From the IMG/VR virus record IMGVR_UViG_3300045918_000275, positions 1-26,676 of that record: a stretch of 26,676 nucleotides of DNA. The stretch is one strand, 5' to 3'. This DNA is from a virus. The notes under the pieces are model-generated. The model was given only the letters and a program-made list of their open reading frames with translations, did no database searches and was not told the origin of the DNA. The position numbers and the translations under genes were made by a program. How positions within the stretch are numbered: position 1 is the first letter of the stretch; the number at the start of each line of letters is the position of its first letter. This document shows, piece after piece, positions 1,571-22,976 of this stretch.

Positions 1571-4102
1571 ATGTCAAAATTATGGCCATTTGCCTCAAAA
1601 GAAAAGGCTCAACTAAACGAACTTGACCTTCATATCAAAAGCTTAGAAGAAAAATTAGAATTCAATGATGACCTTAATGCAGAAATAGAAAGTTACCACA
1701 AATCTTATGACCTTAATGAGAGCACAAATGTTCTTGGTACATTTGGAGTTGTTGATGAGTTTCTAGATAAGGGAATGCTTCAAAGACTTTACTGCACAGA
1801 GACTTGGTTTTTTATCGCAGTTCACACTATTGCTAAGACTATTGCATCTCTTCCAATTAAATTAGAAAAGAAGAAGGTAATTAAGCAGAGAGTTTCTCAA
1901 CAAGATGGATCTACAGATGATGTCTCTAAAACTACCTGGATAGACGCTTCTGGAGAGCCTGAACATCAAATATTATCACATCCAAATAGTTTATCTACGC
2001 CAGTAGAGTTCTGGATGCTTGTAGTAATTGACCTACTAGCAACTGGAGATGCTTTTATTTATGTAGACAAAGGTGAAATTGAACAAGATGAGCTTATAGA
2101 TAATGGATCAACTGCAAATAGATTAAGACAAGCAATCAATCGCACAGCAAAGACTAATGTTCGTGGTCTATATAGACTATCATCTGCTTTAGTTCAACCA
2201 ATTGCCTCAACAAACTCTCAAGGAGTTCTTGCTGGATATTCTATTCAAACTCAAGATGGTTTCTTCACATTTGATAAGAACGAATTAATTCACATTAGAC
2301 TTCCAAATCCAATTGACCCATTCTATGGTCTTGCTCCAATCATGTCAGTAATGAAAAATCTTTTATTAGATCGTTATACTGCTGAACACATGTTGAGATT
2401 TTATAAGCAAGGTGCTAGATTAGGTGGAGTAATTAAGACCAACAAGAAATTAACTAAAGACCAATTAATTAGATTGGAAAGAATATTTGAGTCTAACTTT
2501 ACTGGAAAGAGAAATCACCACAAGACCTTAGTGCTTCCAGAAGGAATGGACTACTCAACGATTGAACAAAATCCAGGAGAAACTTCTCTTATTGAGTTCA
2601 TGAAAGGAAACAAAGAACCAATTCTTGCAGCATACAACGTTCCGCCAATTAAAGTAGGTTTATTGGATGGAGCTACATTTGCAAACGCCAATATCCAAGA
2701 TAAGACTTATTATAATGATACGATTAAACCTCTATTAGCTTTTATTGAACAAGCAATCAATACTCATGGATCTATATTGAGTCCAGCAAGAGAGTTGAAG
2801 TTCTCATTTGATTTATCTGATACAGATGCTCTTCAAGATGATGTAATGGAAATGGCTAAGAACGCTTCTTATCTAGAAAAATCTGGAATGAGCGTTAATG
2901 AGATTAGAGAACGAGTTTGGAAACTACCTCCAATTGATGGAGGAGAAATTTGTCCTCTAATCGTTTCTTCTCAGGCTCCTGCTGCTCCATTTATTCCGTA
3001 TGGTAAAGGAGTTGAGAATAAAACTGAAGTTGCTAATGTTCAAAATGATACTGCTACATTATCAGATATCAAACCAACTAAAGCTACATATGCTGAAAGA
3101 GTTGGTGAACTAGTATCTGCATCTATTGCTGCTGGAATTGATCCAACTCTTGCTGTTCAACAAGCAATTGAACAAGCTAAAACTGAAGGACTAAGTCCAG
3201 ATGGAGAGGTGACCGAAGAAGGAAAAAAGTTCGAGACAGAAATAAAAGTTGGCGCAATTACTAAAGAGATGAAGACTGAGCACCTGAAGAATATGACAGG
3301 TGAAGGTGTTGCTCCATTAATTGAAGACAATAAGAAAAGTTTTGACTCTATGTTTTCTCGTATGGAAAAAATGTTTGTAAAGAAACTAAAATCTAAAATG
3401 AAGTCTTATAAAGTTAAGACTGATCAAGTTCCAGAAGACTTCTTTGAGATAAGCGATATTCAAGGTTTCGAAGAAGATGAGATGAAATGGTATATTGAGT
3501 CCATGTTGAAAGCTATGAGAAACGGCTACAAGAACACTCTCTCTAATCGTCCAATGACATTCCCAAATGAAAGAGCAGCAAAAGTTTTAGAAGAAATTGG
3601 TGCTCAAAGAATAAAAGGCATCACTGAAACTACCATGAACCAAATGAATAGAGTAATTGCTGACTCATTTAAAGACCAAGTATCAGTTACTGAAGTTGCT
3701 TCAAGAATAAGAGACGTGTTTGATAATATTTCAAAAGGTAGAGCCAATACTATTGCACGAACAGAGACTCTTACTGCTGTGTCTATAGGTCAAAGACAAA
3801 AAGTTTATGAGTTTAAAGATGCTTATCCAGAAGAAGCTAAGACTATGAGAAAAGTTTGGCTCACTGCTGAAGATGATCTAGTAAGAGACTCACATGCTGA
3901 ACTTGATGGAGTTGAGTTAGATATTGATGAGCCATTTGACAATGGACTTATGTTTCCAAGAGATCCAGATGGAGACGCTGGAGAAATTATCAACTGTAGA
4001 TGCTCAACAATTGAATTTTTACCAGACTCTGCTGACGATGTGAGAGCAACTTTAGCAGATACTTCTCCAATAGCTTCAGCAGTAGACAAAGTTGAAGAAT
4101 AA
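1571..4102 (+). CDS. Portal protein fused to Mu gpF-like head morphogenesis domain
   Basis: An 843-residue protein with two parts. Residues about 55-460 look like an HK97-type portal, the dodecameric DNA channel at one capsid vertex: the helix-strand segment WFFIAVHTIAKTIASLPIKL, the HPN of ILSHPNSLSTP, then LIHIRLPNP..FYGLAPI and the NVPPIKVGLLDGATFANAN region. After a Lys/Glu-rich linker (about 500-620), residues about 650-820 match the phage Mu gpF/SPP1 gp7 domain: RANTIARTET (about 724-733), VRDSHAELDG and a C-terminal INCRCS. MuF domains are usually separate minor head proteins, so this is a natural fusion about twice the usual portal length. AAGGA at about 1559-1563 supports the ATG. 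The first gene after the terminator, it probably lies downstream of a terminase outside the window. Confidence 0.9.
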   Translation: MSKLWPFASKEKAQLNELDLHIKSLEEKLEFNDDLNAEIESYHKSYDLNESTNVLGTFGVVDEFLDKGMLQRLYCTETWFFIAVHTIAKTIASLPIKLEKKKVIKQRVSQQDGSTDDVSKTTWIDASGEPEHQILSHPNSLSTPVEFWMLVVIDLLATGDAFIYVDKGEIEQDELIDNGSTANRLRQAINRTAKTNVRGLYRLSSALVQPIASTNSQGVLAGYSIQTQDGFFTFDKNELIHIRLPNPIDPFYGLAPIMSVMKNLLLDRYTAEHMLRFYKQGARLGGVIKTNKKLTKDQLIRLERIFESNFTGKRNHHKTLVLPEGMDYSTIEQNPGETSLIEFMKGNKEPILAAYNVPPIKVGLLDGATFANANIQDKTYYNDTIKPLLAFIEQAINTHGSILSPARELKFSFDLSDTDALQDDVMEMAKNASYLEKSGMSVNEIRERVWKLPPIDGGEICPLIVSSQAPAAPFIPYGKGVENKTEVANVQNDTATLSDIKPTKATYAERVGELVSASIAAGIDPTLAVQQAIEQAKTEGLSPDGEVTEEGKKFETEIKVGAITKEMKTEHLKNMTGEGVAPLIEDNKKSFDSMFSRMEKMFVKKLKSKMKSYKVKTDQVPEDFFEISDIQGFEEDEMKWYIESMLKAMRNGYKNTLSNRPMTFPNERAAKVLEEIGAQRIKGITETTMNQMNRVIADSFKDQVSVTEVASRIRDVFDNISKGRANTIARTETLTAVSIGQRQKVYEFKDAYPEEAKTMRKVWLTAEDDLVRDSHAELDGVELDIDEPFDNGLMFPRDPDGDAGEIINCRCSTIEFLPDSADDVRATLADTSPIASAVDKVEE

Positions 4103-5462: not shown

Positions 5463-6824
5463 ATGGAATTGAAAACCGCACTAGCCAATGCTAAAAAGGC
5501 TCTTGAAATGAAAAAAGCAGAAAGACTTGCTGCCGCTACAAAAGGTGGAAAGAATTTCTCAACAAATAAAGCAATGCCAGAAGCTATGAAAAAAGCTTTC
5601 TCAAATTTTGGCGTTAAATCAATGAACGAATTGATTTCAGTAAACACTGCTGAGAAAAAATTCTCATACCTTCCAAAAGCTGAACTAGAAAAAGTTAAAG
5701 CTCTTAAAGAAGACGTTGATACAGCAGTATTGATCTCAAAAATATTTAAGCTTCCTGTTGAAGAAACTAAGTTCTACAAAGAACAACTTTCTTTTTCTCT
5801 AAAAGCTTTTGGTATTGCTTCTGGAAACGATGGTTTTGCTTGGATCCCAACTATGGTGGCTGATTCTTATATCGATGAATTTAATCTTGAAAGAAAAGTT
5901 TCTGGATTATTCATGGAAGTAAAAATGCCATCAAACCCATACAAATGGCCAGTATTAACTGATGGAGCTATTGCTCGTAGAACTGGAGTAGCTACTGCTA
6001 TCAACAAGCAAGTATTCCACACTGACAAAACTATTCAATTTGACGCTGAAAAATTAGCTTCTCGTTATGAGCTTCCAGAAGAACTTACTGAAGACAGTGC
6101 ACCAGACGTTATTAAAGTTATTCGTCAAGAATTAATGGAAGGTCAAGAAAAAGCTCTTGAAATCGCAATTCTTGAAGGTAACAAAGCTGGAACTCTTCAC
6201 CACTTTTCTCAACTTCCAGATGTTGTTTCAACAACTACTATAGCTTCTATCGCTGCTGAAACTCCAGAAACTGCTTTTGATGGTATCCGTACTCGTGCGG
6301 TTGCTGCTCTTTCTCTTTCTTCTGTAGACGCTGCTGCTTCAACAATCTCTGAGCCAGAAATTTCTGCAGCTCGTGGCAAAATGGGAAAATTTGGTGTTGA
6401 TCCTTCTCAATTAGCTCTTATCTCTGGACCAAAAGTTTATAACCAACTTATTCAATTAGACGACGTTCGTACAATTGAACAATACGGTGGACAAGCAACT
6501 GTTCTTTCTGGAGAGCTTGCTAAATATGAAGGTATGCCAGTTATCGTATCTGAATATTTAAGAGAAGATCTTGGTGCTGCTGCTGTTAACACTGCAACTG
6601 CTGGTAGCAACGTTAAAGGATCTTTATTGATCGTAAACAGAAAACGTTGGTTCTTAGGACTTCGTAGAGCTGTTCAAGTAAAAGTTGAAAACAACAAAAC
6701 TGAACTTGACGTTCTTGACTTGGTTGCATTCTCACGAAGAGCTTTCCAAGCTGTTCTTAAAGTTGATGGTTCAAACTACGCTACTGAATCTTCAGTATCA
6801 ATGGTTTACAACATCGGTCTTTAA
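5463..6824 (+). CDS. Major capsid protein, HK97 fold
   Basis: A 453-residue protein at the canonical place after protease and scaffold candidate, with the strongest ribosome binding site in the region (AAGGAG) and a strong terminator behind it. Residues 1 to about 110 are charged and helical (KTALANAKKALEMKKAERLAAA...), resembling the delta domain that HK97-type capsids lose by proteolysis. From about 118 (SGNDGFAWIPTMVADSYIDEF) it continues as an HK97-fold capsid: E-loop-like region PVLTDGAIARRTG, spine helix VIRQELMEGQEKALEIAILEGN, then P/A-domain strands LALISGPKVYNQL and MPVIVSEYLREDL, and a C-terminal strand KGSLLIVNRKRWFLGLRRAVQVKVE. Arg is often CGT and Leu CTT here, unlike the AGA/TTA-rich neighbours, as expected for a very highly expressed gene. 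Confidence 0.92.
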   Translation: MELKTALANAKKALEMKKAERLAAATKGGKNFSTNKAMPEAMKKAFSNFGVKSMNELISVNTAEKKFSYLPKAELEKVKALKEDVDTAVLISKIFKLPVEETKFYKEQLSFSLKAFGIASGNDGFAWIPTMVADSYIDEFNLERKVSGLFMEVKMPSNPYKWPVLTDGAIARRTGVATAINKQVFHTDKTIQFDAEKLASRYELPEELTEDSAPDVIKVIRQELMEGQEKALEIAILEGNKAGTLHHFSQLPDVVSTTTIASIAAETPETAFDGIRTRAVAALSLSSVDAAASTISEPEISAARGKMGKFGVDPSQLALISGPKVYNQLIQLDDVRTIEQYGGQATVLSGELAKYEGMPVIVSEYLREDLGAAAVNTATAGSNVKGSLLIVNRKRWFLGLRRAVQVKVENNKTELDVLDLVAFSRRAFQAVLKVDGSNYATESSVSMVYNIGL

Positions 6825-7730: not shown

Positions 7731-8405
7731 ATGGGAAAATCAGTAGAGACAGACTTAATCTTAAATGGTAATGAGATCCAAAGTGCTAGTTGGGAAAAGT
7801 TAGCAACTGATCCAACAACGCCTTTTGCTGGTCAACATTGGTTAAATACTACTTCAAATAAAAAGAAGTTCTATGATGGATCAATAGTTCACGTAATTGC
7901 GGATGAAGCGTTTGTAGAAGCTGCAGTTCAAGCAATTGGTCAATCACAAGGAGCATTTGATGCTTCTACTGGTTTATTACCAGTTGTTGCAGATCTAATT
8001 GATGGCGATACAGTTATCCGTCGTGGTGACTACTGGGATATATCAGTTGCTGGTACTATTGCTTCTTTAGGTGGTGGTTCAAATGTTTTAGCTATTGGTG
8101 ACGTTTTAAAATTTGTTGGAACAGCTCCAGCAAACCCAGCTCACTGGATTGCTATTCAAAGAAATTTAAACGATACTCTTTTGGGTAATGCTAAAACAGA
8201 AAGACAAACTGTAAACTTAGTAGCAAATACTCCATTAACCGTTTCTGCTTCTACACTTTCAGATGTTCATTCCGTTCAAGTTTATAACTCAACTGGATAT
8301 GAAATAATCCTTGATATTAAAAAAGGAACTAACGCTAATCAAAGAATTCTTACTTCTAAGCGTTCATTAACTGGTGTTGAAGTTGACTTAATTGGTGCGA
8401 GCTAA
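7731..8405 (+). CDS. Head-fibre or tail-fibre-like protein
   Basis: A 224-residue protein with a strong AGGAG site. The N-terminus KSVETDLILNGNEI is closely related to that of the next gene (SKDIETDLDLHGVGRI). Next comes a fibre module common in phages (PFAGQHWLNTTSNKKKFYDG, residues 30-50). A longer module follows: FDASTGLLPVV...GDTVIRRGDYWDISVAGTI...IGDVLKFVGTAPANPAHWIAIQRN (about 80-145), of the kind seen in phage appendage proteins. The last 70 residues form a small beta module (TVNLVANTPLTVS...SVQVYNSTGYEI). Its position just behind the capsid gene favours a head fibre; placement on the tail cannot be excluded. It ends in a one-base TAATG overlap with the following gene. Confidence 0.75.
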   Translation: MGKSVETDLILNGNEIQSASWEKLATDPTTPFAGQHWLNTTSNKKKFYDGSIVHVIADEAFVEAAVQAIGQSQGAFDASTGLLPVVADLIDGDTVIRRGDYWDISVAGTIASLGGGSNVLAIGDVLKFVGTAPANPAHWIAIQRNLNDTLLGNAKTERQTVNLVANTPLTVSASTLSDVHSVQVYNSTGYEIILDIKKGTNANQRILTSKRSLTGVEVDLIGAS

Positions 8406-8653
8406 TGTCAAAAGACATTGAAACAGATTTAGATTTACATGGTGTTGGGAGAATCTTGAATTCTCCTGATCCAGTTTTGCCTAAAGAAGTGGCCAATAAA
8501 GATTACGTAGATGCTGCGTCTTCTGGTTTTTCTTACAAAAGAATTGTTAACGGAAAGAGAGTTAGAATACCAGAAGATCAAGCAATGTTAGTAAGTATGA
8601 ATATGGCTATCGATGGTGAACTCACTATTGATGGAGAGTTGGTGATTATATGA
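8405..8653 (+). CDS. Short fibre-like protein with ETDL N-terminal motif
   Basis: An 82-residue protein that begins inside the previous stop codon (TAATG). Residues 1-17 repeat the SxxxETDLxLxG motif of the previous protein. Residues 22-42 (PDPVLPKEVANKDYVDAASSG) match the widespread tail-fibre segment in which a Pro-rich turn is followed by ANKDYVDA and a helix. The C-terminal 35 residues (MLVSMNMAIDGELTIDGELVII) form short beta repeats, GELTIDGEL. It is very short for a fibre and ends in an ATGA overlap with the next frame. It may be the attachment half of a two-chain appendage whose distal part is the next gene. Confidence 0.68.
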   Translation: MSKDIETDLDLHGVGRILNSPDPVLPKEVANKDYVDAASSGFSYKRIVNGKRVRIPEDQAMLVSMNMAIDGELTIDGELVII

Positions 8654-9117
8654 CAGACACAAACGCATCTGTAGTAATCCCTTTAAGGGACCACACTACA
8701 GTAGAAAACGCTCCAACAGGAAAGTTAAGATATTTTTTCGACTTAAGTAAAAATTTCAGATCAGTTGACGATGCAGGTAATCAAATCATTTATCCATCAG
8801 ATATGAGTACAGTATTATCTCAATTAGCATTAATTTTAGCAAAGCTACCAACAGTTAGAAAAACTATTTTAGCAACAGACTCTGTTTCTAATGGTGAAAC
8901 TTTGTTTTGTGCTGGTACGACTGCTCAAGTAATACATCCTCCATTAATGACTGGAGATAATATTAGATTTAAAATTAAATCGAAAACGACATATAATGTA
9001 ACTATAACTCCACTAGATGCAGCATTAGTAGAAGACGATACGACAGCAATTATAAACGCAGCCGGTACAGCTTTAGAATTTTGTTCTGAAGGTGGAAATT
9101 GGCATATAGTAGGTTAA
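8650..9117 (+). CDS. Fibre-like protein with beta-sandwich C-terminus
   Basis: A 155-residue protein translated from a 4-base ATGA overlap. Residues 18-45 (NAPTGKLRYFFDLSKNFRSVDDAGNQIIYP) look like the N-terminal beta repeat of fibre proteins. A short helix follows (STVLSQLALILAKLP). The C-terminal half, from ILATDSVSNGETLFCAGTT to LEFCSEGGNWHIVG, has the jelly-roll-like pattern of many phage appendage C-termini, which end in a G-x-W-x-I strand. Two Cys residues (in LFCAGT and EFCSEG) could lie near each other in the fold. Function is inferred. Tight coupling to the previous gene suggests that the two are made in equal amounts and may form one structure. Confidence 0.68.
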   Translation: MTDTNASVVIPLRDHTTVENAPTGKLRYFFDLSKNFRSVDDAGNQIIYPSDMSTVLSQLALILAKLPTVRKTILATDSVSNGETLFCAGTTAQVIHPPLMTGDNIRFKIKSKTTYNVTITPLDAALVEDDTTAIINAAGTALEFCSEGGNWHIVG

Positions 9118-9119
9118 AT

Positions 9120-11396
9120 ATGAAAAAATTAATACTTCCGTTATTTTTAATTAGTTTTATTACGATGGCAGCTTATTTTCCATCGACTAATTTAACTCAA
9201 GGTGGAAACAATTTATCAACTACCAATCCATTACCAAATCAATTAAGTGATGGAACATCATTTTATAAAGCATTAACTGATACAGAGTTAAGAGCAACTC
9301 CACTTCCAGTAAGCGGTACATTTTGGCAAGCAACTCAACCAGCATCTCAATCAGGAACTTGGACTACTGGAAGAACATGGTCATTATTAAACACGACAGA
9401 CTCAGTGAACGTAGGAAACTTCCCTACTAGTTTTAACATAGGAAATTTTCCAACATCTCAAGAAGTCACTGGTACTTTCTGGCAGGCAACTCAGCCAATA
9501 TCAGTGGCAACAATACCAACTCACGCAGTAACTCAATCTGGAACATGGGATGTGAGAAATATAACTGGAACAGTTTCATTACCAACTGACGCTGCAACAA
9601 GTGCGCTACAAAATACACAAGAAACTACATTAAACGCAATTCAAACTGCTTTATCTGGACTAGCAACAAGCACTGGACAAGTCACCGAGTTAAGTTCACT
9701 TGAATCTCTTGTGACCAACACAACAGGTATTGCCACAACTGCTAATCAAGCCATCACGAACGCTTCACTAAGTTCAATAGATGCTAAATTAACTTCTCCA
9801 CTAGCAGTATCGTTTTCAGGTGGTGGATTAGCTACAAGCTCTCAAATTGCAACAACTAATGCAACACTGTCTGCTATTGCAACAAATACTCAGGGATTTG
9901 CTCCTGCTACTACCATGACAGGCGCTTTAGGCGAGTTAATATTTGGATCAGTAACTACAACTGCTCCAACTTATACAACTGCAACTCAAAACTCTTTGTC
10001 TTTAACAACAGCAGGGGCTTTAAGGGTAGACGCATCGGCAACAACTCAACCTATCTCAAACGCTTCATTGACTACAATAGCTACTAACAGCGGAACTCAG
10101 GCAACAGCGGCTAACCAAACATCCATCATAGGTGCAAAAACGGCCGGTACAGCAGCAGCTTCTTCAATGCTAGGTGGTGGTGTTTATTTAACTACTCCTC
10201 CAACAATGACAAACAATCAGCAAGCCGCTTTACAGATGAACGTAAACGGTGCTTTAAAAGTGGATGCCAGCGCCGCAGGTATTACAATTGCAGGTGTGGC
10301 CACTACTGCAAACCAAGCAACGGAAATAGCTTCTCTTTCTTCTTTGGTAACAAACTCAGGAGTTGGAAATGGATCACTATCAACTATTTACTCAAACCAA
10401 ACAAACGGTTTACAGAAAACTCAATTCGTAGATAGTACAGGCGCAATAGTAGGTTCAACAAATGCTAATGGTGTTATTGGCATGAACGTAGCATTATCAG
10501 GGACTAATTTTATTGCTTCAACTTTAAATAGTACAGCAGCTCAATTAGCAGCAGCAGCTACTTTTACAGGGACTATTGAAACTATTTTAAGTCAGCAAAG
10601 TATCTCACTAAACGTAACCTCAGACCAACCTGGAACATTGACGTTACATCAATACTCCGATGCAGCGGGAACTTTTGAATTACCTCCAATTGTAATTACT
10701 CATTTAGCAGGAGTTGGAATCAATAAGGCAGTTACTATTAATGGAAGTTATATAAAGCTCACATATCAAAATACAGGTGCTTCAACTACAACTACTTTTA
10801 ACATGGCTACATATTACGGAATTTTGCCAGCGACAACTGAACTGGGTAACGGCCCTGTAGCTGTTAATGAGATTGCAGGAGTAGCGACTTCACCGTTAGT
10901 AAAAGGTACTCAAGGAACTAACGGATTCACAGTACAGGCCTTACATGATGCTGGAAGAAATAAAGTTCATTACTTTATGGCAGTTCCAATTATTACAACT
11001 GCAACAGACACTTTAGTTTCATTAACAGGCTATACAGATGCTGCAGGTGCAGTAGCAGCCACAACAACTCCAGCCGTTATCACGACAGGAAAGAAGTTTA
11101 GATTAACAGGAATAACTATTGCATATATAAATGTTACTGCTGAAGTAAGTGGAGAGGTTAACTTAAGAGTTAATAATGGTGGTGTTGTCGCTATTACAAG
11201 TCCAGTAGTTGAATCATGGGAAACAGGAAACAATGGTAGAGGTACTGCAGGTGAAGCATTCGCTTATAATATTCCATTAGATATGGAATTTAATGCTGGT
11301 TCTGGGTTAGGTATTTCAATAATAGGTAGAAGCACCACTATGGCAGCGGCAGCTGGTGGTTATGTCAAAGTTTCATTAACAGGATATGAATATTAA
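9120..11396 (+). CDS. Large repeat-containing virion-type protein with Sec signal peptide
   Basis: A 758-residue protein. The frame allows a TTG at 9099, but that lies inside the previous gene. The ATG at 9120 begins a textbook signal peptide: KK, then a hydrophobic core LILPLFLISFITMAAYF, then polar residues; cleavage is likely near residues 17-19. Residues about 60-160 carry GTFWQATQP (66 and 118) and NFPTS repeats. Residues 160-450 repeat TTANQ..SLSS and paired APTYTT/PPTMTN...GALxVDAS blocks, all common in phage minor structural proteins. Residues about 470-570 form a decoration-like beta domain (FTGTIETILSQQSISLNVTSD..GTLTLHQYSD...YIKLTYQNTG). Residues 605-758 are another beta domain beginning LHDAGRNKVHYF. 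An export signal on such a protein is unusual (see findings). Confidence 0.8.
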   Translation: MKKLILPLFLISFITMAAYFPSTNLTQGGNNLSTTNPLPNQLSDGTSFYKALTDTELRATPLPVSGTFWQATQPASQSGTWTTGRTWSLLNTTDSVNVGNFPTSFNIGNFPTSQEVTGTFWQATQPISVATIPTHAVTQSGTWDVRNITGTVSLPTDAATSALQNTQETTLNAIQTALSGLATSTGQVTELSSLESLVTNTTGIATTANQAITNASLSSIDAKLTSPLAVSFSGGGLATSSQIATTNATLSAIATNTQGFAPATTMTGALGELIFGSVTTTAPTYTTATQNSLSLTTAGALRVDASATTQPISNASLTTIATNSGTQATAANQTSIIGAKTAGTAAASSMLGGGVYLTTPPTMTNNQQAALQMNVNGALKVDASAAGITIAGVATTANQATEIASLSSLVTNSGVGNGSLSTIYSNQTNGLQKTQFVDSTGAIVGSTNANGVIGMNVALSGTNFIASTLNSTAAQLAAAATFTGTIETILSQQSISLNVTSDQPGTLTLHQYSDAAGTFELPPIVITHLAGVGINKAVTINGSYIKLTYQNTGASTTTTFNMATYYGILPATTELGNGPVAVNEIAGVATSPLVKGTQGTNGFTVQALHDAGRNKVHYFMAVPIITTATDTLVSLTGYTDAAGAVAATTTPAVITTGKKFRLTGITIAYINVTAEVSGEVNLRVNNGGVVAITSPVVESWETGNNGRGTAGEAFAYNIPLDMEFNAGSGLGISIIGRSTTMAAAAGGYVKVSLTGYEY
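9315..10300 (+). repeat. Degenerate protein-level repeats within the 9120 gene
   Basis: GTFWQATQP is encoded at 9315 and 9471 (52 codons apart), each followed by a SGTW block. GNFPTS occurs twice between them. TAANQ/TTANQ blocks recur near 9730, 10105 and 10303, and GALxVDAS occurs near 10015 and 10248. The copies differ in codon use, so they are old protein repeats rather than recent DNA duplications. Confidence 0.7.
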
Positions 11397-11411
11397 TTTA
11401 AAGGAGAATTT

Positions 11412-11789
11412 ATGAAAGCAATAATTTTATCAATCGTTTTATTATTTAACCTAGTTGCCTTTGCAGGAACTACTAATTATGACTCTACACTAGTAGGTAA
11501 AAACTATGTTAGAGGTAACAATATCAACATTCAGTACCCACCAAATGGACTTCCAATAATTACAGTGTCACAAGCTAATGCTGTAAAAATGTTAGATGGA
11601 TCAGTAGTAGAAATTAGTCAAGCTCAATCTCTAACTTTCTCTTTAGATTTGGTAAATAATGCTTTAACATCAATACCAGAAGTAGATCCAACTAGTGGTG
11701 CTTCTCTTGGTATTAATACTAATCTACAAGCTGTAATGTTAGGTGTATTAGCAGTAGTGAGACAACAACAGATCCTTAAAAATCCGTAG
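11412..11789 (+). CDS. Small protein with Sec signal peptide
   Basis: A 125-residue protein with a strong AAGGAG site 6 bases before the ATG. Residues 1-18 (MKAIILSIVLLFNLVAFA) form a clear signal peptide with an AFA cleavage site before GTT, and no lipobox Cys. The mature part starts with TTNYDSTLVGKNYV and YPPNGLPIITV. Its C-terminal part, PTSGASLGINTNLQAVMLGVLAVVRQQQ, resembles segments often found in small proteins encoded beside the GTFWQATQP type of protein. It therefore looks like a partner of the upstream gene. Whether it reaches the periplasm or joins the particle is unknown. Confidence 0.72.
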   Translation: MKAIILSIVLLFNLVAFAGTTNYDSTLVGKNYVRGNNINIQYPPNGLPIITVSQANAVKMLDGSVVEISQAQSLTFSLDLVNNALTSIPEVDPTSGASLGINTNLQAVMLGVLAVVRQQQILKNP

Positions 11790-11823: not shown

Positions 11824-12336
11824 ATGAAAAAAATTATATTCGGCTTTTCTACAACTCATTTGCCTCTAAGCTGGTTAATTAGAAAAATACAAGGACTAGA
11901 TTGTTCTCATGTTTACATTCAATATACTTCTTCTTGTGGAGAAGAATTAGTTTATGAGGCAGAAGGAATGCAAACGCATTTAGTAAATAAGAAAAACTTT
12001 GTAAACTCTTCAATAGTAGTTGAAGAATATGAAGTGGAAGTAGACCAAAAAACTTTTGATGATATTAAAGTGTTTATTGAAAGAGACATTGGTGTTCCAT
12101 ATGGGTGGGGGGAATTAGTTGGTCTATTGATAAAGTTTTTTATCCATTTTATTTCATTTGGAAAAATAAATATTAAAAATCCATTCCCATCAAAAGATAC
12201 AATTTGTTCTGAAGCCGCTGGTCATATCTATATTAAGTTTTTAGGTGGATATCAAGACGTTGCTGATGATGATATTGATATTGTATGGATTTGGAGCAGA
12301 ATAAATTCAGACGGCAGATTCAAAAGGATAAAATAA
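11824..12336 (+). CDS. YiiX-like permuted NlpC/P60 (papain-fold) hydrolase
   Basis: A 170-residue protein with the layout of circularly permuted NlpC/P60 enzymes (YiiX/LRAT-like). In these the catalytic histidine comes early and the nucleophilic cysteine late. Here CSHVYIQY (H29) is the N-terminal His strand and ICSEAAGHIY (C128, E130) the Cys helix. YEAEGMQTHLV (44-54) and the GVPYGWGEL turn (90-98) are typical intervening family features. Such enzymes cleave amide or ester bonds in peptidoglycan, lipids or lipoproteins. A hydrophobic segment (LVGLLIKFFIHFISFG, 98-113) precedes the Cys, perhaps a membrane-facing surface. There is no signal peptide. AAGG precedes the ATG, and the gene ends in a TAATG overlap with the connector gene, so it is co-translated with head-tail genes. 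Lysin, virion-borne entry enzyme or host-modifying enzyme are all possible. Confidence 0.78.
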   Translation: MKKIIFGFSTTHLPLSWLIRKIQGLDCSHVYIQYTSSCGEELVYEAEGMQTHLVNKKNFVNSSIVVEEYEVEVDQKTFDDIKVFIERDIGVPYGWGELVGLLIKFFIHFISFGKINIKNPFPSKDTICSEAAGHIYIKFLGGYQDVADDDIDIVWIWSRINSDGRFKRIK

Positions 12337-16646: not shown

Positions 16647-19600
16647 ATGGCAGATAACGAAGTCAAATTAGTTTTAACAGCCGAAGACAATATCTCTTCG
16701 GCCATCAAAAAGGTAACTGAGGCTTTGGGTGAAACCGGACTCGGTCAAGCCGTCACAGCTGTGTCAACTTCATTTACAGCGCTGAAAGGTGTTGCTGAAT
16801 TAGTTGGTGAAGCAATTCATAAAGTAAATGAATTTGTAATGGAAGGCGTTAATGATGCCTCTAATGCAGAAAACGTAAATAAACGATTAGCTATGTCTAT
16901 GTCCTTAGTTGGACAATATTCTGATAAGGCTATGGTCTCAGTTAATGAATGGGCAGGAGCACTTGAAACCGCAACTGGTACTTCAGATGAGTCTTTAAGA
17001 AGCTTAGTGGCTCTTGGTCTACAAAGAGGATTGTCTATTGAGCAATCTAAAAAAGCTACTCAGGCTGCAATGGATCTAGCTGCAGCTACAGGCCAAGATT
17101 TAGATACAGCCTTTCAACAAATGACTATGACAATGTCTGGTTCTGCTGGACGATTGGCTAAAATGGTTCCTGAGTTAAGAAACTTAACCAAGGAAGAACT
17201 AGAAAATGGTGGTGCAATAGATCTTATTTCCAAGAAATATGCTGGCTTTGCTGATAATGCTGCCAACTCATATTCTGGATCAATTGCTAAATTTCATTCT
17301 CAAATAGGAAACGTTAAAGAGGAATTGGGAAGATTGATAGCTCAAAATCCAGTCGTTATAGCCTCATTTAATGCTATGGCAGAAACTCTTGGAAAAGTAA
17401 CTGAAGCAGCAGCAGAAATGTCAACATGGTTATTAACTAATTCTGATGATATTGCAGATTTTGCCAAAGCTATGGGAATAGCTTCATTAGTTGTTGGAGC
17501 TTATGTAGTTTATTTAAATGCGGCCACAATAGCTGCGACATTAGCAACAGCGGCCTCAATTGGATTTGCTGGAGTAATGGCAATAATAACTTCTCCAATT
17601 ACATTAACAATAGCCGCAATTGCAGCTTTAGGAACTGGACTTTATTTTTTAATGAAAAATATAGATCTAGTAGTTGGCGCATTAAAATTTGGATTAGGAA
17701 AAGCTTTAGAGTGGATATTAATTCCATTACAAATGTATGTCTCTGCATTAGGAACAGTAGTTGGAATATTCAATGCAGATTGGGGAAAAGCTTTAGACGC
17801 AGCTTCTGAAAAAATAAAAGCTTTCTCTAAAGATCTTCAAAAATCTGGCCAAGCCCAAATGGATGCGGCTATTGCTGCAAAAGAACATGGAAAGGCTGTA
17901 GATACTAATGCATTAATGGTTGCAAGATCTACCGCAGGATTAACAAATCAAATTACAGCTCAAGCTCAAGCACTTACTGCTTTAAGAGCAGGATTTGCAA
18001 AAGCTTTAGATGCAGGTAAAACTGCTTTCGATGCCTTAAAAGATTTATCTCCAAGAATGTCTTTAGAAATGTTTCAACAAGACGCTAAAACTTGGACCAA
18101 ATCTATTGCAGAATTAAAAAAGCAATCTGAAGGCTTAAAAGTAAGGCTACAAACTGAAGTTCAAACTGACGACGTTAAAAAAGAACTTGAAAAAGTAACT
18201 CAACAAATTAGATTTTCAGCTGAAGCAGAAAAAGCTTTAAAAATAAAATACGCTATTGAGTCTAGAACTGCTGTCACAAAAGAAGAGCAAATTAGATTAG
18301 ATCAAGTTAAGAACTCAGAAATTTCTGTAGCAAATGAAGTAATGCAAATGCGTTTATCTAATGCTAAAGGAATAAGAGATCAACTTATTGCTATTGATGA
18401 ACAAAGAATTTTAAAATTAAGAGGATTAGAATCTCTTGATGCACAAGCTGGAGTTACTGCTAAGACTCAGGCAATTTTAAATGTTAACAAAATAGAGTTA
18501 GATGCGTATAAAGCTAGTTTAGATGCTCAAAAGCAAATGGCTATCTCTGTTGAGTCACAAAAACAATTAGAACTTGCTAGTTTAAAAGCTAGTTTAATGA
18601 GTGGATCTACTGCTGGCGGCGGAGCTGCAAAACAAGATGTTGAAGTAATTCAAGCTCAACAAAAACAAGCTCAACTTCAAGTTTTAAGAGATCAAAATAA
18701 AATTACTGAATCTGCTTATCAAGGAGAATTAACTCAAATTCAAATTGACGCTATTAATTCTCGTACAGCGATGGAAGTTCAATTAAATGAGCAACGCGCT
18801 GCAGTGTTGGGAACTTCTCCAGAAGCTTTAGCTTTACGTTTACAAAATGCTCAACTTCAAAATGACGCTGAACTTGCAGTTATCCAAGAAAAATGGATGA
18901 ATGAAGAGATGACTGATGCAGAATTTTATGCTGCTCAAGAATCTGCAGAACAACAGCATCAGATTGCAATGAATGGTATTAAAGAAGCTCAATTACAAAA
19001 AGAAGTTGAAAACCAAACTAAATTAAAAAATACTTGGCAAGCAACTTTGGCTAATTTGCGCTTAATGCAAGAGCAACATGGTAAAGTAATGGGAACTGTT
19101 AAAGCAATTCAACAGTCTCAAGAATTTCAAGGTTTAAATACTGCATTAAGCAATACTGCAACTTTAATGCAAAGTAAAAACGCAAGCCAATTTAGAATTG
19201 GTCAAGCTGCAGCTATTGCTCAAGCAGCAATTAATATTCCTTTGTCTGCGATTAATGCATATACCTCTATGTCGGCTATTCCAATTATCGGTCCTGCGTT
19301 AGGGGTTGCAGCAGCTGCTGCTGCTATCGCTGCTGGAGCAATGCAAATTTCTCAAATCAGAGCGCAAAAACCGCCAGGACAAGCGCATGCTGGTTTGGAA
19401 AGCGTTCCTGGATCTATGGATAATTCAACTTTTCTTCTAAGAGCTGGAGAAAGAGTTGTTGCTCCTGAACAAAATAAAGACTTAGGATTAGCAATTGATA
19501 AAATTAATTCAGGCGGAAGTGGTGGACACACTGTTAACATTGTAATTAATGGAAATGCAGATGAATCTACAGTAGAAAAAATAAAAACTGCAGTAATGGA

Positions 19601-19667
19601 TGCGCTTAGAGAAAAATCTGAAAGAGGCGTTCCAGTTATTAATGCTCGTGGGATCGTTACAGGATAA
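16647..19667 (+). CDS. Tape measure protein
   Basis: A 1006-residue protein just after the chaperone frames. Its length sets tail length; at about 1.5 angstrom per residue it predicts a tail near 150 nm. Residues 1-250 are helical with a conserved-type N-terminus (LVLTAEDNISSAIKKVTEALGE, typical of tape measures). Two or three hydrophobic segments lie at about 275-335 (IASLVVGAYVVYLNAATIAATL, FAGVMAIITSP...TLTIAAIAALGTGLYFLM), likely used during DNA entry. Residues about 430-860 are a long Gln/Ala/Lys-rich coiled coil. A second hydrophobic stretch (IPIIGPALGVAAAAAAIAAGAMQ, about 875-897) is followed by HAGLESVPGSMDNSTFLLRAGERVVAPEQNKDL (about 912-945), the standard tape measure end motif. No lysozyme or peptidase domain is visible. 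The ribosome binding site is weak (AAGG, 10 bases). Confidence 0.9.
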   Translation: MADNEVKLVLTAEDNISSAIKKVTEALGETGLGQAVTAVSTSFTALKGVAELVGEAIHKVNEFVMEGVNDASNAENVNKRLAMSMSLVGQYSDKAMVSVNEWAGALETATGTSDESLRSLVALGLQRGLSIEQSKKATQAAMDLAAATGQDLDTAFQQMTMTMSGSAGRLAKMVPELRNLTKEELENGGAIDLISKKYAGFADNAANSYSGSIAKFHSQIGNVKEELGRLIAQNPVVIASFNAMAETLGKVTEAAAEMSTWLLTNSDDIADFAKAMGIASLVVGAYVVYLNAATIAATLATAASIGFAGVMAIITSPITLTIAAIAALGTGLYFLMKNIDLVVGALKFGLGKALEWILIPLQMYVSALGTVVGIFNADWGKALDAASEKIKAFSKDLQKSGQAQMDAAIAAKEHGKAVDTNALMVARSTAGLTNQITAQAQALTALRAGFAKALDAGKTAFDALKDLSPRMSLEMFQQDAKTWTKSIAELKKQSEGLKVRLQTEVQTDDVKKELEKVTQQIRFSAEAEKALKIKYAIESRTAVTKEEQIRLDQVKNSEISVANEVMQMRLSNAKGIRDQLIAIDEQRILKLRGLESLDAQAGVTAKTQAILNVNKIELDAYKASLDAQKQMAISVESQKQLELASLKASLMSGSTAGGGAAKQDVEVIQAQQKQAQLQVLRDQNKITESAYQGELTQIQIDAINSRTAMEVQLNEQRAAVLGTSPEALALRLQNAQLQNDAELAVIQEKWMNEEMTDAEFYAAQESAEQQHQIAMNGIKEAQLQKEVENQTKLKNTWQATLANLRLMQEQHGKVMGTVKAIQQSQEFQGLNTALSNTATLMQSKNASQFRIGQAAAIAQAAINIPLSAINAYTSMSAIPIIGPALGVAAAAAAIAAGAMQISQIRAQKPPGQAHAGLESVPGSMDNSTFLLRAGERVVAPEQNKDLGLAIDKINSGGSGGHTVNIVINGNADESTVEKIKTAVMDALREKSERGVPVINARGIVTG

Positions 19668-20555: not shown

Positions 20556-22976
20556 GTGAGTCAGAATATATTTAAAAATGCGTCAGTCAATGCCACGCCC
20601 ACATTAAATGTAGGAGCTGTTGGTAATGGTACATTAACAATAGATAGATTGTCTCACTTTACAATCACACAAAGTTACTCAGCAATTTGTACTGCAATTT
20701 CTCCTTTTGCTGTATTTAATATCATTGGTAGTCTAGACGGAGCTGTTGGAGTTGCTGTTGTTGGTACTCAATTCACAGATCCAGATAATAAAATCTTTAT
20801 TACTATTCAACAAGGTCCTAGTTTATTTCAAATTGGCGACACATTTGCATTCTCAGTTATTCAAGGAACAGACTTAAATCAAGCAAATCTTGATGCTTAT
20901 GATGAATTACCACAGAAAAACTTCGGTTCTGGTCAAGTAGGTTACAATAAAGGTGACCACAATGTTAGATTTAATACAAATCCTGTGTCTGCTTCAAAGA
21001 TTATTGGTGATTTAGAGTTCGCCGCAGTCACTCCAGGACCACTTGGAAATGAAATTTCATTACAATTAATTGCAGGATCTGTGTTAAATACAGCATTCAC
21101 AACAATCCAAGCATTAAAATATGAAGCAAATGCGCCAGGATCTGCTGGAAATAACATACAAGTTCAATATGAAGACTATACACCATCAGTTCAAGCATTT
21201 AAGCAAATTCAAGCAATATATTATAATGCATATACTCATGGAACTAGCGGAAACAATATCTCAATTGCATATTCAAACTCAACTACTGCTGGAAATGAGA
21301 TTGCAACTTTAGTTGGTAATGCAATTACGGTTACAATTCAATCTGGAGTATCTACTGCAAATCAAATTATGACTGCGTTAGGAAACAACCTATCAATAGT
21401 TGCTCTTATTCAATTTTTTGGAACTGGAACTGGTTTAGAAACACAACTAACTCAAGCGTTAATTCACTTAAGCGGTGGAACAAGTTCTATCGGTGATGCT
21501 GGAAATGAAGTTGTGACAGTTGTCTCTAATTTGATTAAAGTTAAAATGCAAAGCGGAGTTTCTACTGCACAAAACATTTATGACAAATTAATTTTAAGCG
21601 GCGCTGTTCTTGGATTAGTAACTCCAACAATTACTGGTGTTGCTGCGTCAACTCAAACTGCTCCAGTAGCAGCAACTAATTTAACTAATGGCACCAACAA
21701 TGTTGGCGATCCAGGAAACGAAATAGTAGTGGTAACTTCAAGATTAATTAAAGTCACTTTTGCAAATGGACTATCTACTGCAAGCCAAATTAGAAGCAAA
21801 ATTCTTGCAAACGTAGCAGCTGCAGCATTAATCACTGTAACTCTTACAGGAACGGGATCTGAACTACAAAGTTCTCCAGTTACTAGAACATTTTTAGCTG
21901 GTGGACAAAGCTCTGGATCATTTGCTTTCAACACTTCAGAAATAACTGCTCCAGGAGCATTTTTTGAAGGAAATGCGCCAATTTTACTCAATGGATTAAC
22001 TAATCAAGGTGATGAAATAACTTTTGGTGAGACACTTAAAAAAGGTAAAGTCACTTTAGATGATGACATCACTGGAAACTTGCCGGGACCAATAGTAAAC
22101 AGCGCTCAACAAACAATAAATAATTTAATCCAAAATGGAAAATGCTTCTTAGTTTCTAAATCTGATTTGAAAACAGAATGGAGCAAACCTGCTGGAACAT
22201 TACAGTTAAAGGGTGATTTGGTTTTAGTGTTTCCAGAGACAAATGTTACAAACACTTTAGCATATACTGCTGGACCATTTACTATTGCAGATGGCGAACA
22301 TATTTACTTTGTAGTTGATAGATTTAACAATATCGCAGTAACTCCAATTAAATCAACTACAGTTCCCAATTCTCCAAATGGAGAAAATATTTTCAGATTA
22401 GTTTCTCGAGTAGGAACTACATTGTTTTGGTATGATAACACTTCTCAAAGAGAAGGAAAGAAAATTAGAATTGGTGAAGGTGGTTCATCTGGAGCCTGGC
22501 AAGAAAAGTTAGGCGTAGGTAATGGATCAAATAAGAATTTTCCAATATTAAGTGGGTATTTTCCAATTGCTCAAGAAGCAATCTTAGTTTTTTCTAACAC
22601 TGCTCACTATGTTAATACAGAGTGGACCTATAATGTTAATCAAAATCAAGTAGAGTTTGTTGTTGCACCAAAAGCTGGTGTAGAAGTTTACATTTATTTT
22701 TTAACAGATGGCGAAACTATCACTGTTCCATCTCCATCTGGGATTCAACAAGTAATTTACCACACTGTAACTGCTACAGAAATAACTAACAAACATTTAA
22801 CATTACTAGTTGCTCCTGCAGTACCAGCAAAAGTTTTAGTTGATCATATTGGTGGTACTTCACAAGTATTTGGTGACGACTATAGTGTTACTGGAACAAC
22901 TTTTAATTGGTCTGGATTAGGTATGGAATTATTTCTAGTTGAAAACGATATTATTAGAATTGTATATTACTCATAA
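20556..22976 (+). CDS. Large tail-tip or appendage protein with beta repeats
   Basis: An 806-residue protein with a GTG start and TGGAGA 7-12 bases upstream. Residues 1-115 are an unknown beta domain. Residues about 150-240 carry three GxxGNxI(S/Q)(L/V)(Q/A) blocks (PGPLGNEISLQLI, PGSAGNNIQVQYE, HGTSGNNISIAYS). Residues 246-450 hold three units of about 70 residues with a GNE...I/VKV...SGVSTAxxI pattern. A central part (about 475-640) follows (ILLNGLTNQGDEITFG, GKCFLVSKSDLKTEWSKPAGTLQLKGDLVLVFPET). The last 150 residues have two modules: NGSNKNFPILSGYFPIAQEAILVF...VEVYIYFL, and PAKVLVDHIGGTSQVFGDDYSV...DIIRIVYYS. It could be a tail appendage or spike scaffold. No enzymatic motif is visible. 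Confidence 0.7.
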   Translation: MSQNIFKNASVNATPTLNVGAVGNGTLTIDRLSHFTITQSYSAICTAISPFAVFNIIGSLDGAVGVAVVGTQFTDPDNKIFITIQQGPSLFQIGDTFAFSVIQGTDLNQANLDAYDELPQKNFGSGQVGYNKGDHNVRFNTNPVSASKIIGDLEFAAVTPGPLGNEISLQLIAGSVLNTAFTTIQALKYEANAPGSAGNNIQVQYEDYTPSVQAFKQIQAIYYNAYTHGTSGNNISIAYSNSTTAGNEIATLVGNAITVTIQSGVSTANQIMTALGNNLSIVALIQFFGTGTGLETQLTQALIHLSGGTSSIGDAGNEVVTVVSNLIKVKMQSGVSTAQNIYDKLILSGAVLGLVTPTITGVAASTQTAPVAATNLTNGTNNVGDPGNEIVVVTSRLIKVTFANGLSTASQIRSKILANVAAAALITVTLTGTGSELQSSPVTRTFLAGGQSSGSFAFNTSEITAPGAFFEGNAPILLNGLTNQGDEITFGETLKKGKVTLDDDITGNLPGPIVNSAQQTINNLIQNGKCFLVSKSDLKTEWSKPAGTLQLKGDLVLVFPETNVTNTLAYTAGPFTIADGEHIYFVVDRFNNIAVTPIKSTTVPNSPNGENIFRLVSRVGTTLFWYDNTSQREGKKIRIGEGGSSGAWQEKLGVGNGSNKNFPILSGYFPIAQEAILVFSNTAHYVNTEWTYNVNQNQVEFVVAPKAGVEVYIYFLTDGETITVPSPSGIQQVIYHTVTATEITNKHLTLLVAPAVPAKVLVDHIGGTSQVFGDDYSVTGTTFNWSGLGMELFLVENDIIRIVYYS
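21291..21910 (+). repeat. Three tandem ~70-residue protein repeats
   Basis: Units begin at GGAAATGAG (21291), GGAAATGAAG (21501) and GGAAACGAAA (21714), spaced 70 and 71 codons. Each encodes GNE(I/V), a short loop, then a strand and GVSTAxQI or GLSTAxQI. DNA identity between units is modest, so they are diverged protein repeats likely to form a beta-rich rod. Confidence 0.75.

Follow-up and report, generated by a model that had tools for sequence, protein, structure and literature searches.

Fibre-type proteins with predicted Sec signal peptides in a structural operon of a tailed phage and in related phages

Phage fibres are generally considered to fold and assemble in the cytoplasm. Exported proteins resembling them are known from Bdellovibrio, whose mosaic adhesive trimer (MAT) fibres have swapped C-terminal tips, some of them TNF-like, disulfides in some tips and a conserved beta domain of ~130 aa right after the signal peptide (PMC10769870). 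Among phage products that leave the cytoplasm, the Llp protein of T5 is a superinfection-exclusion lipoprotein that is expressed early and acts on FhuA (PMC9586334), while gp40 of Xanthomonas phage PBR31 is an esterase similar to tail-associated hydrolases with an N-terminal signal peptide (PMC10975493). SAR endolysins, such as gp47 of JG068 (PMC3765740), are late phage proteins exported through Sec. The virion of cyanophage CL131 has also been analysed, and the main text of that study does not name gp025, which counts here as a non-exported relative (PMC6293099).

Here we describe two adjacent genes encoding proteins of 758 and 125 aa (SP758 and SP125) in the window, which is the whole stretch of DNA analysed, a tailed-phage fragment of 26.7 kb from IMG/VR. 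SP758 shares with the MAT fibres a predicted signal peptide on a phage-fibre-like protein. MAT tips are TNF-like or otherwise trimeric; the tip of SP758, modelled as a monomer, gives a TNF/C1q-like jelly roll with TM-scores of 0.4-0.5 to its solved matches. MAT fibres, however, are products of chromosomal genes of a predatory bacterium and serve in prey handling, whereas SP758 belongs to a phage structural operon; since, in addition, a phmmer search of the PDB matched no MAT chain, SP758 is not filed as a MAT fibre. Its operon position, repeats and jelly-roll tip fit a tailed-phage fibre or receptor-binding protein, but such proteins are synthesized without an export signal. Llp is similar in being a phage protein that reaches the periplasm and keeps phage off infected cells and debris; it is, however, a small lipoprotein, while SP758 and SP125 have no lipobox (no cysteine) and no similarity to Llp. 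SAR endolysins are enzymes with a releasable anchor, and neither protein of the pair shows a muralytic domain or a Pfam match. Gp40 of PBR31, unlike SP758, is no fibre but a single enzyme encoded beside the lysis genes, and its authors regard it as a possible lysis aid. In the open-access papers searched, tailed phages with blocks of exported fibre genes are not described. The original prediction that no described system has this form is therefore sound for phages within that literature and too broad in general, as exported phage-fibre-like proteins are known in Bdellovibrio (PMC10769870).

The gene pair and its homologues

The features of the locus are collected in Table 1. The interval between the capsid gene and the head-tail genes is filled by a run of small fibre-like genes, the last two of which are SP758 and SP125, so that the pair lies within the structural operon, between capsid and tail genes. 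The ATG of SP758 is two bases past the stop codon of the gene before it. Pfam, PHROG and NCBIfam gave no match for either protein; among isolated phages, SP758 has only a partial match and the SP125 family has none. The fibre repeats and the jelly-roll tip of SP758 are common to other phage proteins, and genomic context and homology together support the virion-type character attributed to the pair. The modules of the larger protein had been described as those of decoration or minor structural proteins; they are indeed phage modules, for which fibre or receptor-binding protein is the apter term.

Table 1. Coordinates of the main features of the window
Feature	Position	Strand	Basis or remark
Portal protein fused to Mu F-like domain, one 843-aa protein	1571..4102	+	Pfam Phage_portal and Phage_Mu_F
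Major capsid protein	5463..6824	+	PHROG 10 major head protein, E 1e-11
Upstream boundary of the slot: 82-aa and 155-aa fibre-like genes, no signal peptide	8405..9117	+	82-aa gene kept in sister phage L006
SP758, 758-aa fibre-type protein, predicted exported	9120..11396	+	ORF; signal-peptide rule; relative L002
Predicted Sec signal peptide of SP758, MKKLILPLFLISFITMAAYF, weak cleavage site	9120..9179	+	Absent from L002 and L157 homologues
Two copies of the GTFWQATQP fibre repeat, defining repeat of the wider family	9312..9500	+	Sequence; repeat family survey
'GYEY' tip domain of SP758, ~167 aa, TNF/C1q-like jelly roll	10893..11393	+	28-member family; AlphaFold2; Foldseek
Shine-Dalgarno sequence AAAGGAG of SP125	11400..11406	+	Sequence
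SP125, 125-aa partner protein, predicted exported	11412..11789	+	ORF; homologues in L002, L157
Predicted Sec signal peptide of SP125, MKAIILSIVLLFNLVAFA, followed by GTT	11412..11465	+	Homologues start at mature N-terminus
Downstream boundary of the slot: 170-aa gene	11824..12336	+	Kept in sister phage L006; PHROG 1128 match, E 5e-7
Tape measure	16647-19667		Position, size and sequence character; no family match behind the call

Signal peptides were called by a heuristic strict rule on the n-, h- and c-regions of Sec-type signal peptides (not SignalP), calibrated on 91 E. coli K-12 genes with classes assigned from annotation. Half of the exported proteins (7/14) were called, but none of the 26 membrane and 51 cytoplasmic ones (false positives 0/77). 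In the window only SP758, read from the ATG at 9120, and SP125 pass. The signal peptide of SP125 is classical, with cleavage predicted between AFA and GTT, and a strong ribosome-binding site stands directly ahead of its start. That of SP758 has a strong h-region and a weak cleavage site, at best guess between TMA and AYF, so the peptide could stay as a membrane anchor. An alternative start further on that leaves out the hydrophobic segment is not plausible for either gene: SP758 has its following start codons at codon 16 (within that segment) and codon 96, and SP125 at codon 52. Composition-matched shuffles pass the rule in 12/5000 and 61/5000 cases. By these sequence criteria, namely the heuristic rule, the start codons and the shuffles, the N-terminal signal peptides originally noticed on both genes are real, and the two proteins are predicted to be exported via Sec.

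Homologues of the pair occur without signal peptides in other phages. In L002, a phage with an unrelated capsid, the two genes are adjacent, and their products have 573 aa (64% identity to SP758 in the best segment) and 108 aa (L002:9592-9918, 45% identity to SP125); in L157, a 176-aa version of the C-terminal domain is followed by a 106-aa homologue of SP125 (L157:5995-6315, 58% identity). Neither phage has a signal peptide on either protein, and in the alignment both small homologues begin exactly at the predicted mature N-terminus of SP125. The small protein thus adjoins the same C-terminal domain in three phages, its signal-peptide state matching each time, which agrees with its proposed role as a partner; its structure model (pLDDT 58) is too poor to interpret. 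Homologues starting downstream of the hydrophobic segment, as they do in L002 and L157, had been named beforehand as an argument against export. These starts do not refute predicted export: homologues without the hydrophobic segment suggest an originally cytoplasmic module that later acquired export signals, and the signal peptides of SP758 and SP125 are most simply read as gained. In L006, the closest relative by capsid (80%) that reaches past the slot, the flanking genes are kept and the slot holds three other, non-exported genes. This difference in content, together with the occurrence of the pair in L002 and L157, marks SP758/SP125 as a swappable cassette.

Other genes of the window vary among relatives as well. 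The 170-aa gene after the slot has, by eye, the look of a permuted NlpC/P60-type hydrolase. Where the window and L006 have this gene, L010 encodes a patatin-like phospholipase (L010:16202-17014; Pfam PF01734) with weak NCBIfam similarity to a CBASS phospholipase, and the corresponding position of L012 (L012:14977-15807) encodes another, judged by its N-terminus; two different enzymes, possibly lipid-acting, share one slot. The fusion of portal and Mu F-like domain is larger in relatives, with 1657 aa (L007:1973-6946) and 997 aa (L008:5413-8406). A domain of the 806-aa protein (20556-22976), at aa ~209-312 and 379-468, recurs in L007, L008, L010, L011 and L012, where it is embedded in homologues of structural genes that are unrelated to one another (269-aa, 99-aa and 415-aa), as if it were a mobile decoration domain inserting into many virion proteins.

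The tip domain and export in the wider fibre family

The C-terminal tip domain of SP758 has 28 family members in the fetched loci. Its AlphaFold2 monomer is all-beta (pLDDT 79), and among solved structures Foldseek places it closest to a portal-tail chain and a short tail fibre domain, both from cyanophages, and to TNF/C1q ligands. Against the C-terminal binding domains of the short tail fibres of cyanophages A-1(L) (8ke9) and A4 (9k09), both solved as parts of tails, TM-scores are 0.41-0.43; at 0.4-0.5 overall, the likeness is one of fold and does not establish membership. The tip would most likely bind a structure of the host surface. Signal peptides are found in four tip-domain lineages, the window, L176, L078/L168 (with an internal GTG start) and L109 (called by eye). 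The tree of the domain, in which the window, L176 and L109 are labelled, requires at least three signal-peptide changes and places the non-exported L002 as sister of the window; L109 stands on a long branch, and L078, recognised as exported later, groups with L176. A member without a signal peptide lies after the capsid gene in L088, and the tip module has passed between phages whose capsids are unrelated.

A DNA pattern for the GTFWQATQP repeat retrieved 119 viral contigs. With the strict rule and a start scan of 40 codons, 12 of 101 repeat genes with intact start have a signal peptide, and in the whole fibre family the proportion is about one in seven (20/148). Taken together, repeat genes exceed other genes by a modest margin (OR 2.6, p=0.011), which makes the block structure the stronger result: of the genes adjoining an exported member 9/15 are exported, and of those adjoining a non-exported one 3/144 (p=7e-9, 40-codon start scan), a contrast whose size varies with the start scan and becomes 3/9 versus 5/150 (p=0.006) with first starts only. 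Exported members come from phages of three tail-apparatus types and usually form blocks of 2-5 exported genes; the blocks adjoin tail genes in genomes of siphovirus-like and myovirus-like phages and of other tailed phages. Blocks of three to five genes stand beside a baseplate region (L003), a tail sheath gene (L207) and a lysis-type peptidase (L197), and the genes of a J-like tail protein (L056) and a tape measure (L096) have single or paired exported genes as neighbours. One exported gene of L003 matches Phage_depo_C, the phage depolymerase C-terminal domain, above the curated cut-off, and the exported block of L104 includes a GDSL-like tailspike-type domain. Phage fibre blocks with predicted export signals are real, recurrent and undescribed in the open-access literature searched.

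Among individual loci, L197 (L197:7725-12388, a contig binned to Acetobacteraceae) has four consecutive signal-peptide genes of 939, 134, 325 and 177 aa, flanked by a fibre-like gene and by a short membrane-protein gene with an M15 peptidase. In L207 (L207:3-6086), signal peptides occur in 5 of the first 6 phage-strand genes of the fragment, upstream of the tail sheath gene. The repeat-family proteins at L154:1-1837 (-) and L125:3-1496 (+) have a long N-terminal region and then a transmembrane segment, with no signal peptide, a type that is possibly a third, membrane-anchored form. Hosts known from genome contigs for some relatives are Acidobacteriota, Acetobacteraceae, Betaproteobacteria and Opitutales; the same genome scan with the repeat pattern gave none for the window phage. 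An enrichment in Acidobacteriota is suggestive among 23 genome loci, but the pattern was present in 1 of 396 Acidobacteriota genomes, too few to test.

Exported members would fold in an oxidising compartment, so a cysteine signature is expected. Close cysteine pairs are in fact present in 12 of 19 exported and 8 of 121 non-exported members (p=6e-8), and of these eight, L120, L136 and L139 have evident signal peptides that the rule missed, while L154 has the long N-terminus with transmembrane segment noted above. In an independent test, contigs were fetched by the CDSGC motif alone and export was predicted before looking; after exclusion of three nearly identical copies, of two contigs that had come up before and of two with truncated starts, 13 of 15 genes have a signal peptide (12 strict, 1 relaxed), compared with 20/148 in the family (p=8e-9). 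This result shows predicted export for members of the family and does not extend to the window protein. Since independent exported relatives carry cysteine pairs, export in the family is probably functional. SP758 and SP125 contain no cysteine at all; the disulfide rationale was therefore dropped for the pair itself, and evidence for an oxidising compartment comes from relatives only.

Possible roles of the exported pair

In the reading that we favour, with a probability of about 0.45, SP758 would be a fibre protein and SP125 its small partner, both derived from an ordinary virion module of the cytoplasm that gained Sec signal peptides, and the two would act off the virion. Exported fibre blocks recur as a class in tailed phages, and the pair would be one instance. 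From gene order and general phage biology, the pair would be made late, together with the capsid genes, and set free at cell lysis, after a predicted passage of the inner membrane through Sec and probable folding in the periplasm. The free tip could then cover receptors, both on the dying cell and on its debris, which would keep progeny from being trapped or would block superinfection; this effect would resemble that of T5 Llp, to which the pair is unrelated. Against such a role, exclusion proteins of the T5 type are made early, and SP758 and SP125 lie in a late operon.

The same location, in a structural operon with head genes on one side and tail genes on the other, would also suit proteins that are exported, fold in the periplasm (many relatives with disulfides) and dock on completed particles once the cell opens. 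P22 tailspikes and T4 fibres are able to join particles in lysates. Relatives without a signal peptide, presumably virion parts, occupy the same post-capsid position (L088), and the exported blocks both hold tailspike-type domains (L003, L104) and adjoin tail genes. Some tailed phages would then build part of the virion outside the cytoplasm, with the window pair as a cysteine-free example. We rate this attachment at lysis as somewhat unlikely, behind the off-virion role. Against it stand the movement of the tip module among phages of unrelated capsids and an N-terminal domain that some non-exported members have (23/128) and exported ones do not (0/20; about p=0.03 by hand). Its absence weakly fits a loss of virion docking, the contrast itself being weak because most non-exported members also lack the domain.

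The anatomy of SP758, with predicted signal peptide, fibre and a tip modelled as TNF-like, resembles that of the MAT proteins (PMC10769870), and like these the pair might act on the surface of the infected cell, as an adhesin or lysogenic-conversion gene. This we consider improbable, given its place in a late structural operon and the failure to find a membrane anchor or sorting signal by eye. Tyrosine integrases occur in 0 of 6 relatives of the window phage (records of 46-79 kb) and in only 3 of 13 other exported-type phage records, which may be fragments, and lysogenic conversion is on these counts disfavoured as a general explanation. It is less probable still that the hydrophobic N-termini are no functional export signals, arising by chance or serving as an uncleaved anchor on the virion: the cleavage site of SP758 is weak and close homologues work without such a segment, but two adjacent genes have it, shuffled versions rarely pass the rule, and among relatives signal peptides recur in blocks and correlate with cysteine pairs. 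An artefact of assembly or gene calling, conceivable for a single metagenomic contig with no second copy of the junction found, is very improbable in view of the good ribosome-binding site of SP125, the tight gene spacing and the same slot with other genes in sister phage L006.

If Sec export of these often cysteine-paired fibre blocks across tail types is borne out, either some of the virion is completed outside the cell or phages routinely release free receptor-binding proteins at lysis. Either outcome would bear on host range, on superinfection and on the annotation of phage 'hypothetical proteins', and exported phage fibres would be the phage counterpart to the exported MAT fibres of Bdellovibrio.
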